From Phycisphaerales bacterium (GTDB taxonomy: Bacteria > Planctomycetota > Phycisphaerae > Phycisphaerales > UBA1924), in assembly GCA_007693765.1 (NCBI GenBank), contig RECZ01000085.1, forward strand, positions 1-37,914: a DNA stretch of 37,914 nt, given 5' to 3'. This document shows, piece by piece, positions 23,105 to 33,893 of the stretch. The number at the start of each line of letters is the position of its first letter. Within the stretch, counting starts at the first letter, position 1. Position numbers and translations under genes: made by a program. The notes below the pieces were generated by a model. The model was not told the DNA's origin. It ran no database searches and saw nothing but the letters and a program-made list of their open reading frames with translations.

Positions 23105-23111
23105 ACTCCGC

Positions 23112-23150
23112 AAACGCGGCCGCGTCTTTCGAGGCGCGGCCGCGTTTTTT
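23112..23150 (+). terminator. Intrinsic terminator after the PDZ gene
   Basis: A 13-pair stem with arms at 23112-23124 and 23135-23147 (AAACGCGGCCGCG / CGCGGCCGCGTTT) and a ten-base loop runs into a T-tract (23145-23150, then GTTTT). It ends the sigma, anti-sigma-like, PDZ unit. Confidence 0.92.
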
Positions 23151-23215: not shown

Positions 23216-25147
23216 ATGACACCGACACCCGCATCGTGGCGCGCCGGCGCGCTCGGAACCATCGCCGCTCTCACCCTCGGCGCCTGCGCCGAGGCCGGGG
23301 CCGGGGCCGGCGAGCGCGACATCCGCCTGCGCGTCGACGCGACGGACATCGAGCGCCGGCTGGTGCACTCGCGGATCGACCTTCCCGCGGCGCCGGGGCC
23401 GAACGAGCTGTACTTCGTCGAGTGGACGCCGGGCAACCACAACCCCAGCGGGCCGATCCAGAACGTCGTCAACGTGCGGTTCTTCGACGACCACGGGCGC
23501 GAGCTCGACTGGCGACGCGACCCGGCGCACGTCGTCCGCTTCACCGTGGACGTGCCCGAGGGCGCCCGCGCCCTCACGGCGCACCTCTCGTACATCGCCA
23601 ACCAGCCCGGCGTGAACTCGCGCTCCACGGACACCTACGGCGCCCCTGAATACGGCGGCCTCAACTGGAACACCGTGCTGCTCTACCCCGCGGGCGAGCA
23701 CCGCGAAGACATCCGCTTCAGCGCCTCGCTGCGCCTGCCCGAGGGCTGGCGTGCGGCGACGCCGCTTCCGGTCGCGTCGGAGGACGCCGACGGCGTGCGG
23801 TTCGAGACGGTGTCCCTGGCGCGGCTGATCGGATCGCCGGTGATCTTCGGTTCGACGCTGCGCTCGCAGGAGATCGAGGCCGAGCACATCGACGGGCGCA
23901 CGGCGCCGCACGTGGTGCACAGCGTCGCCCCGAGCCACGACCTCACGGAGCTGCCCGCGACACGACTGGAGAAGTTCGCGCGGATGGTGGAAGAGACGCA
24001 GGCGGTCTTCGGGGCTTTCCCGCGCGATCGGTACGACTTTCTGGTGATTCTCAGCGACGAGTGGCCGGGGTTCGGCGTGGAGCACGAGGACAGCACGTTC
24101 ATCGGCATGAGCGCGCGGTCGTTCGTGAACGCGGAGACGGCGCGGGGCGGGCCGATGCTCGTCGTGCCGCACGAGTACATCCACACGTGGTGCGGGAAGC
24201 TCCGCGCCCCCGAGGGGCTGCTGGCGGACGACTACCACACGCCCGCGGCGCCGGACCTGATGTGGGTCTACGAGGGGTTGACGTCGTACTACACCGACGT
24301 CATCGGCGTGCGGAGCGGGCTGCTCGACCGCGAGGAGTACACCGAGCGGCTCGCGTCTCGGATCGGCGGCTACGAGCTGCAGAAGGGCCGGGCGTGGCGC
24401 AGCGTGCTCGACACCGCCCACGCCCTGCGTCACCTGCGCGCCCCGAGCGACGCGTGGGAGGACCTGCGCCGGCGCCAGGACTACTACGCGGAGGGCGCCA
24501 TGTTCTGGCTCGAGGCCGACGCCCTCATCCGGCGCGGCACGGGCGGGGAGCGCTCGCTGGACGACTTCTGCGCCGTGTTCTTCGACGTCGAGCCCGGTCC
24601 GGCGGGGCGCCCGTCTACGTACACGCGCGAGGAGGTCATCGACACGCTCGCCCGCGTCTATCCCGGCGTGGACTGGGATGCGCTGGTGCGGGTGAGGCTC
24701 GAAACGCCGCAGCGAGAGAGCCTCGCGTTCGACTCGCCCGCGTTGCTCGGCCACCGCTTCGAGTGGTCCGGCGAGCCCACGGCGCGTCAGCGGAGCGCCG
24801 AAGAGCGCGCCGGCAACGCGAACCTGCGCAGCTCGCCCGGCTTCGCCGCCGACGCCCGGGGGCGCATCACGAGCGTCGTGCCGGGGTCGCCCGCCGACGA
24901 TGCGCGCCTCGCGTACGGCATGCGGATCGTGGGTGTGAACGACCGAACGTACTCGGCCGCGACGCTGCGCGACGCGGTTCGCGCCTCGGTCGAGACGGGG
25001 CGCATCGACCTCACCGTGGAGTGGGGCGACCGGCTGCGCAGCGTGCGCATCGAATCGGACCAAGGGCTGCGCTACCCACGGCTGATCCGCGATTCGTCGC
25101 TCGGCCCCGACCTCCTCGAGGGCATCCTCGCGCCCCGCGTTCCCTGA
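23216..25147 (+). CDS. M61-family metallopeptidase with PDZ domain, lipoprotein-like
   Basis: A 643-residue zinc peptidase of the M61 glycyl aminopeptidase type. The N-terminus has a hydrophobic stretch ending LTLGAC, a plausible lipobox with Cys near residue 24, so the protein may be lipid-anchored. A beta-sandwich N-domain (about 35-230, with FVEWTPGNHNPSGP and the conserved LNWNTVLLYP) is followed by the gluzincin domain: H319-E-Y-I-H323 in VVPHEYIHTWCGK and the third ligand Glu in LMWVYEGLTSYY. A PDZ domain ends the protein (about 545-620: GRITSVVPGSPADDARLAYGMRIVGVNDRTY), as in other family members. All catalytic residues are present. It is monocistronic, with a terminator before it and another about 290 bp after it. 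Confidence 0.9.
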   Translation: MTPTPASWRAGALGTIAALTLGACAEAGAGAGERDIRLRVDATDIERRLVHSRIDLPAAPGPNELYFVEWTPGNHNPSGPIQNVVNVRFFDDHGRELDWRRDPAHVVRFTVDVPEGARALTAHLSYIANQPGVNSRSTDTYGAPEYGGLNWNTVLLYPAGEHREDIRFSASLRLPEGWRAATPLPVASEDADGVRFETVSLARLIGSPVIFGSTLRSQEIEAEHIDGRTAPHVVHSVAPSHDLTELPATRLEKFARMVEETQAVFGAFPRDRYDFLVILSDEWPGFGVEHEDSTFIGMSARSFVNAETARGGPMLVVPHEYIHTWCGKLRAPEGLLADDYHTPAAPDLMWVYEGLTSYYTDVIGVRSGLLDREEYTERLASRIGGYELQKGRAWRSVLDTAHALRHLRAPSDAWEDLRRRQDYYAEGAMFWLEADALIRRGTGGERSLDDFCAVFFDVEPGPAGRPSTYTREEVIDTLARVYPGVDWDALVRVRLETPQRESLAFDSPALLGHRFEWSGEPTARQRSAEERAGNANLRSSPGFAADARGRITSVVPGSPADDARLAYGMRIVGVNDRTYSAATLRDAVRASVETGRIDLTVEWGDRLRSVRIESDQGLRYPRLIRDSSLGPDLLEGILAPRVP

Positions 25148-25245
25148 CGCCGCCACCCCCGCGGCGCCGGCGTGTGCTCGCGGGAAAACATCCCCCGAGT
25201 TGGGCATTTACACGCAGAGCGTCACGGCACGGCTCTAACTTGGAA

Positions 25246-25445
25246 CCGCTCTACGTTGCGCTGCGAATAGTCCCGCAGCAGGGGAGAGAAAGCCCCACTC
25301 GCGACCACACGGGCGTGTGTTCGGTCTCGCGGACTCCTTCCCCCGCGAGCACCGCCGCCGGATGTCGACGCGACGTGCAGGGGCCATAAGAACCTTGCCC
25401 GTGCGGGCGCCTTGGGAGGACGCCTGTGTGGGCAAGGTTTTTTTG
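25246..25445 (+). ncRNA. Candidate structured RNA between the M61 gene and a terminator
   Basis: No convincing ORF lies here, yet the DNA folds well. A long-range helix pairs ACGTTGCG (25253-25260) with CGCGACGT (25369-25376) and can extend outward with mismatches. Inside it, GGGGAGAGA (25281-25289) pairs with TCCTTCCCC (25335-25343) with one mismatch. The tip is a hairpin of CGCGA..CC (25300-25306) with GG..TCGCG (25323-25331), capped by ACAC-GGGC-GTGT (25307-25318). A side hairpin CTGCG/CGCAG (25261-25278) sits in the junction. A terminator hairpin closes the 3' end. The outline (closing stem, open centre, long apical arm) recalls 6S RNA, but no signature sequence proves this. TCTAAC at 25234-25239 is a possible -10. 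It could instead be a long 3' UTR of the peptidase gene. Confidence 0.35.
25391..25444 (+). terminator. Long intrinsic terminator hairpin
   Basis: AACCTTGCCC (25391-25400) pairs with GGGCAAGGTT (25430-25439). The stem continues inward through GTGCGGGCG/CGCCTGTGT with several G-U pairs, ending in CCT-TGGG-AGG. Seven T residues follow (25438-25444). The T-tract is on the plus strand; on the minus strand the other side is only weakly T-rich, so partial bidirectional use for the convergent gene at 25476 is possible. Confidence 0.9.
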
Positions 25446-25475
25446 CATCACATCAATCTGCGGTCGCGTGACCGC

Positions 25476-26114
25476 TCAACGCCGGCGGCGCGAGCCGAGC
25501 AGCAGCAACGCTGCGAGCGGCGCCGCGGCGCCCGGCGCGGGGATCGTGCCGCCGATGTCGGGCGTGATCATCGCGGGCGCCTTGGCGGATCCGCCGTTGT
25601 CGAGGCCGCGGAAGCGGATTACGAAGTTCTGCTCGGCGGGGCCGTCGAAGAAGTTGGAGGCCTGGAGCGACTCCGCCTGCGCGCTGAGCACGCTGAACAC
25701 GAAGATCCCGGTGTCGCCCACGCCGATGCCGCCCGCGGGGTTGCCGCCGCCCTGCCAGTTGCCGCCGAGCGCGGCGCCGGCGAGGAACGAGTGTCCGAAG
25801 GGCATCGTGTTGACGTTGGTCATGCCCTGAAACGCGGCGTGCGTGGAGGACGTGAGCGTGGCGCTGACGCCGTCGACGCCCGAGTTAAATGCGAGGCCGG
25901 TGATCGTGCCGCCCACGCTGGGCGTGGTGTTGGTGAGCGTGATGACGAGCGATCCGGCATTGCCGCCGGTGTGCGTGTACCCGGCCGTGCCGGTGAAGGC
26001 CACGCCCTGGTCGCCATCGATGGCGGAGCCGAGTTGTGAGAACCCGATAACGCCCGCGGAGGCGGCGCCGGCGGAGAACGCGAGTATGGCGGCGGTGGCG
26101 GTGAGGTGCATCAT
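25476..26114 (-). CDS. Secreted protein with PEP-CTERM-like sorting tail
   Basis: A 212-residue exported protein. It has a signal peptide (LTATAAILAFSAGAASA), a Gly/Thr/Asn-rich beta-type body (SLVITLTNTTPSVGGTITGLAFNS, NFVIRFRGLDNGGSAK), and a C-terminal tail that reads IPAPGAAAPLAALLLLGSRRRR. A Pro-rich motif, a hydrophobic helix and a basic end are the three parts of PEP-CTERM-type sorting signals, here in the IPAPG form common in this group. The exosortase-like enzyme that would handle it is not in the window. The body has no recognised enzyme motif. GGAAGGAA lies upstream of the ATG; the next codon is also ATG. Confidence 0.8.
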   Translation of the reverse strand: MMHLTATAAILAFSAGAASAGVIGFSQLGSAIDGDQGVAFTGTAGYTHTGGNAGSLVITLTNTTPSVGGTITGLAFNSGVDGVSATLTSSTHAAFQGMTNVNTMPFGHSFLAGAALGGNWQGGGNPAGGIGVGDTGIFVFSVLSAQAESLQASNFFDGPAEQNFVIRFRGLDNGGSAKAPAMITPDIGGTIPAPGAAAPLAALLLLGSRRRR

Positions 26115-33619: not shown

Positions 33620-33893
33620 ACCGGCGGCTCACCGCTGGAAACACAAACCAACCCCGCCGGCGCAGAGATGCGTCGGCGGGGTTTTTGTATCGCGGCGTGC
33701 GTGTGTCGCGGCGTCGGCGGGGCCGTGTTCAGCGCCCCGAGCCGAACGCGCCGAGGACGATCGAAAGGTCGGCGAAATCCACCACACCGTCGCCGTTGAG
33801 GTCGCCCTTGAGGCCGGGGCCTGTGAGCCCGAACTCGCCCAGCACGATCGCGAGGTCGTCGAAGTCCACGACGCCGTCGCCGTTGACGTCGCC
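33452..33893. repeat. Inverted repeat made by two dockerin-like coding segments
   Basis: The 65 bp at 33452-33516 (first dockerin-like unit of the protease) and the reverse complement of 33829-33893 (first unit of the multicopper oxidase) are nearly identical, with about five or six differences by eye. They face each other across about 310 bp that hold both stop codons and a terminator. The second units of each gene are also similar. Confidence 0.8.
33650..33687 (+). terminator. Terminator between the convergent protease and oxidase genes
   Basis: AACCCCGCCG (33650-33659) pairs with CGGCGGGGTT (33674-33683), with an inner GCGC/TGCGT section, and five T residues follow (33682-33686). Read from the other strand, the hairpin is followed by TTGGTTTGTGTTT, so it may also serve the convergent oxidase gene. 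Confidence 0.9.

Follow-up and report, generated by a model that had tools for sequence, protein, structure and literature searches.

The stretch from 25148 to 25444 of the window (the 37,914 nt of contig RECZ01000085.1 from a Phycisphaerales bacterium) is most probably the long 3′ UTR of an M61 peptidase transcript, a non-coding spacer of about 240 nt closed by an intrinsic terminator (probability about 0.8). The host genome, of which the window is a single contig, measures 2.9 Mb (176 contigs, 96% complete), and the gap in which the stretch lies (25148–25475) separates two convergent genes. On the + strand is a gene for an M61 glycyl aminopeptidase-type protein with a PDZ domain (23216–25147), in which Pfam families M61_N, M61 and PDZ were found above cut-off and the coding phase is strong. 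The gene facing it on the − strand (25476–26114) also shows coding phase and is predicted to encode a secreted protein, with a signal-like N terminus and a CTERM-like sorting tail (APGAAAPLAALLLLGSRRRR); its product scored 13.9 bits against MYXO-CTERM, under the cut-off of 20. RNA polymerase leaving the M61 gene would read through into the spacer (25148–25389) and transcribe it, and the GC-rich hairpin with its seven U would then stop transcription before it could enter 25476–26114 in the antisense direction.

The gap between the two genes is non-coding. The GC contrast across the three codon phases is 0.3–0.5 in the flanking genes against 0.04–0.12 in 25150–25450, and the first-pass annotation had rightly described a stretch without a convincing ORF. 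Two antisense ORFs of 66 aa are present in the gap, neither of which has a Pfam match. These ORFs, along with a 13-bit match to the Chlorobi-1 family on the − strand, could be taken to mean that the opposite strand carries a small gene or an RNA, but this is very unlikely given the lack of a coding phase, the low score of the Chlorobi-1 match (E 1.3, far under the gathering score of 50) and the G-U pairs of the terminator stem, which pair better on the + strand than on the − strand.

The intrinsic terminator (25390–25444, + strand) is the sole feature of the gap that is clearly beyond chance. It consists of a hairpin of about 23 pairs with a folding energy of −36.9 kcal/mol and a shuffle z of −5.3 to −6.3, followed by seven T (25438–25444), so that a stable, GC-rich hairpin has a U run immediately 3′ of it, as in intrinsic terminators. 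The long terminator hairpin with seven T noted at first pass thus stands far above shuffle expectation. A simple terminator scan missed it, presumably because of the limits that the scan sets on stem shape. The hairpin lies 243 nt beyond the M61 stop codon and about 32 nt from the stop of the opposing gene. It also folds on the − strand (−28.8 kcal/mol for 25380–25446), where it is followed by the tail UUCUUAU, making shared use with the opposing gene plausible; the same hairpin probably ends the opposing transcript as well.

Four strong hairpin-plus-T sites were found in the window, three on the + strand (25438, 33682 and 23145) and one on the − strand (1951), with that at 25438 being the strongest. 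The other three are likewise long, near-perfect hairpins with T5–T8 tails (23111–23150, 33645–33686 and 1944–1980), and all lie behind gene ends. Since they trail genes on the same strand, a gene followed by a spacer and then a hairpin with a T-run is a common arrangement in the window. The distances from gene stop to hairpin are about 30 nt (33682), 143 nt (23145) and about 40 nt (1951), all of which are exceeded by the 243 nt behind the M61 gene, and this counts against the 3′ UTR reading.

Upstream of the terminator, structure is only marginally better than chance. The host genome has a GC content of 70%, at which long helices arise by chance, and the presence of a strong terminator can give an entire spacer the look of a highly structured RNA: 25240–25450 as a whole has a z of −4.0, whereas 25246–25393, which excludes the terminator, has a z of about −1.7, with 13 of 200 shuffles (about 6.6%) being equally stable. 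An uninterrupted stem of at least eight pairs spanning 100–140 nt was present in 19% of shuffles. With hand-picked bounds (25252–25377) the z is −2.2, a value that counts against the 3′ UTR reading.

The individual helices proposed at first pass fared unequally. The minimum-energy fold of 25240–25450 is multibranched and contains both the closing helix (25253–25260 with 25369–25376) and the side hairpin (25261–25278), with mean pairing probabilities of 0.84 and 0.97, respectively, in 25240–25446. The side hairpin is thereby upheld. Whether the closing helix forms depends on exactly where the RNA begins, and adding upstream sequence abolishes it: its probability drops to 0.01–0.02 for an RNA that reaches the terminator from a start at 25200 or 25148, and to 0 for one starting at 24900. 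The inner arm (25281–25289 with 25335–25343) and the capped apical hairpin (25300–25331) are formed by strings that are indeed complementary, but both have a probability of about 0 in the isolated RNA. Enforcing all of the named pairs, in our own encoding of them, gave a structure less stable than the optimum by about 27 kcal/mol. What survives of the proposed structured unit is its non-coding character, its terminator and, provided that the RNA starts near 25240, its closing helix and side hairpin, but not the inner arm or the apical hairpin.

A start near 25240 would suit a small RNA that is lineage-specific and independent, or else a stable product processed from the M61 3′ UTR, in either case ending at the terminator. 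Such an RNA would fold compactly, with side hairpins and a closing helix of probability 0.84, and the strong terminator would give it a defined 3′ end. This alternative is nevertheless unlikely, as the fold is near chance once the terminator is removed, the closing helix hinges on the exact 5′ end, no promoter was recognised, and no homologue was found by DNA search (163 family genomes) or by structure model (100 genomes).

The promoter evidence concerns the sequence TCTAAC (25234–25239), which had been called −10-like. It matches TATAAT at four of six positions, and those missing are A2 and T6, the two most conserved bases of the −10 element. Hexamers of this 4/6 type occur at 4.1 per kb in the window, and the best −35 match at a spacing of 16–18 nt has only two of six bases. 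The best hexamer pair matches at 6 of 12 positions, which is also what stretches taken at random from the window give. The scan found no sigma-70-type site for an independent small RNA near 25240, although planctomycete promoters can depart from the consensus that was scanned, a point that counts against the 3′ UTR reading. Two readings were originally offered, a long structured 3′ UTR and an independent small RNA. The first is favoured by the M61 strand, the real terminator and the lack of a credible promoter, while the 6S-like part of the second fell away and no result speaks for the rest of it.

The first-pass annotation had proposed aligning the same gap from related genomes. No homologue of the candidate was found that could be aligned. 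A DNA search of 163 genomes of the same family, all from genera other than that of the host, gave only matches of up to 38 nt, and a search of 150 relatives gave only matches of up to 46 nt, about half of them within coding-like ORFs. A single-sequence covariance model run against 100 family genomes reached a best E value of 0.37, which is at chance level, and two of its three weak matches fell in coding-like ORFs. Phage and plasmid collections returned no match to the region. With only short DNA matches and chance-level covariance-model matches, the candidate unit is not a conserved feature of the family.

M61 homologues were located at 21 loci of relatives (the closest at 62% identity), and the sequence downstream of them differs, often with another gene following immediately. 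No comparable hairpin-plus-T unit was seen behind the homologues at these loci. Two relatives found by a protein search of a named collection are Phycisphaerae/Phycisphaerales MAGs. In the closest relative (L025), the gap behind the M61 gene contains GA-rich and TC-rich tracts (GGAACGCGGAGTGAGACGGAGTTTTTGAG and CTCAAAAACTCCGTCTCACTCCGCGTTCC) that look complementary, forming a long inverted repeat unlike anything in 25148–25475. That the unit is missing behind the relatives' M61 homologues would fit a young gene, and a genus-restricted small RNA of recent origin can be envisaged, released from the M61 peptidase gene or transcribed behind it, folding compactly into several branches and ending at a terminator of its own, but this is quite improbable.

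Known RNA families do not account for the region. A search with Rfam covariance models, 6S among them, had been suggested as a check, and nothing relevant to the region appeared at either the gathering or the E 10 threshold. RNase P RNA and SRP RNA were rejected as identities, in agreement with the earlier view that their conserved cores are absent, and the copies of the host genome lie elsewhere (G000:C91:8960–9369 and G000:C21:11–109, respectively).

The suggestion of a 6S-like architecture was compared with genuine 6S RNAs of the same family, and this control search shows what a real structured RNA looks like there. Of 100 family genomes, 23 gave an RF00013 match at E 1 or better (4 of them above the cut-off), and the remaining 77 gave none at E 1. 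Conserved blocks are common to 22 of the 23 matched RNAs (CGAACCTT, GGGAGCC, CAAGCCnCCnCCGAGnGGAAGG, GGCRCCCACCT and GGGGTTCG; loci L046–L067), and at 12 of the 21 consensus pairs both sides have changed with pairing preserved. RF00013 seems to underdetect the 6S RNAs of this planctomycete family, given that 4 of 100 genomes passed the cut-off and 22 have a recognisable 6S. In four relatives (L088, at 2000–2168, L047, L055 and L086) the 6S RNA adjoins a serine acetyltransferase (cysE-like) gene.

No 6S feature of this kind is seen in the candidate. RF00013 gave no match in 25000–25600 up to E 10, the clade-specific 6S model scored at most 3.4 bits on the candidate with filters off, the blocks conserved in the 22 same-family 6S RNAs are absent from 25240–25446, and the inner arm and apical hairpin that would make the rod have a probability of about 0. 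A literature search on the 6S RNA and other small RNAs of these organisms found nothing relevant.

The place of 6S RNA in the host genome does seem vacant. Neither RF00013 nor the clade pattern detected one in the whole genome (about half of the 100 family genomes also lack the pattern), and the clade model found none among the 150 of 3881 candidates that it scored, a weak negative. The host carries a serine acetyltransferase gene (G000:C132:14046–14945; L091), and no recognisable 6S RNA was found beside it, including in its upstream region. A divergent 6S RNA in the M61 gap could fill this vacancy, but is extremely unlikely in view of the low clade-model score, the lack of conserved blocks and the multibranched optimum, and the vacancy itself may reflect an assembly gap or a limit of the search. 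As a host 6S RNA was not found elsewhere, the argument that the candidate is not 6S rests on its own lack of 6S features.

Compared with known systems, the candidate resembles 6S RNA (RF00013) in its size, which is near 150–200 nt, and in a possible long-range closing helix. It differs in being multibranched rather than a single rod of closing stem, central bubble and apical arm, and in having none of the family 6S blocks. The closer likeness is to an intrinsic (Rho-independent) terminator with a long 3′ UTR, with which it shares the GC-rich hairpin followed by T7, the gap between convergent genes and the non-coding spacer; relative to the other terminators of the window, the M61 spacer is longer, at 243 nt.
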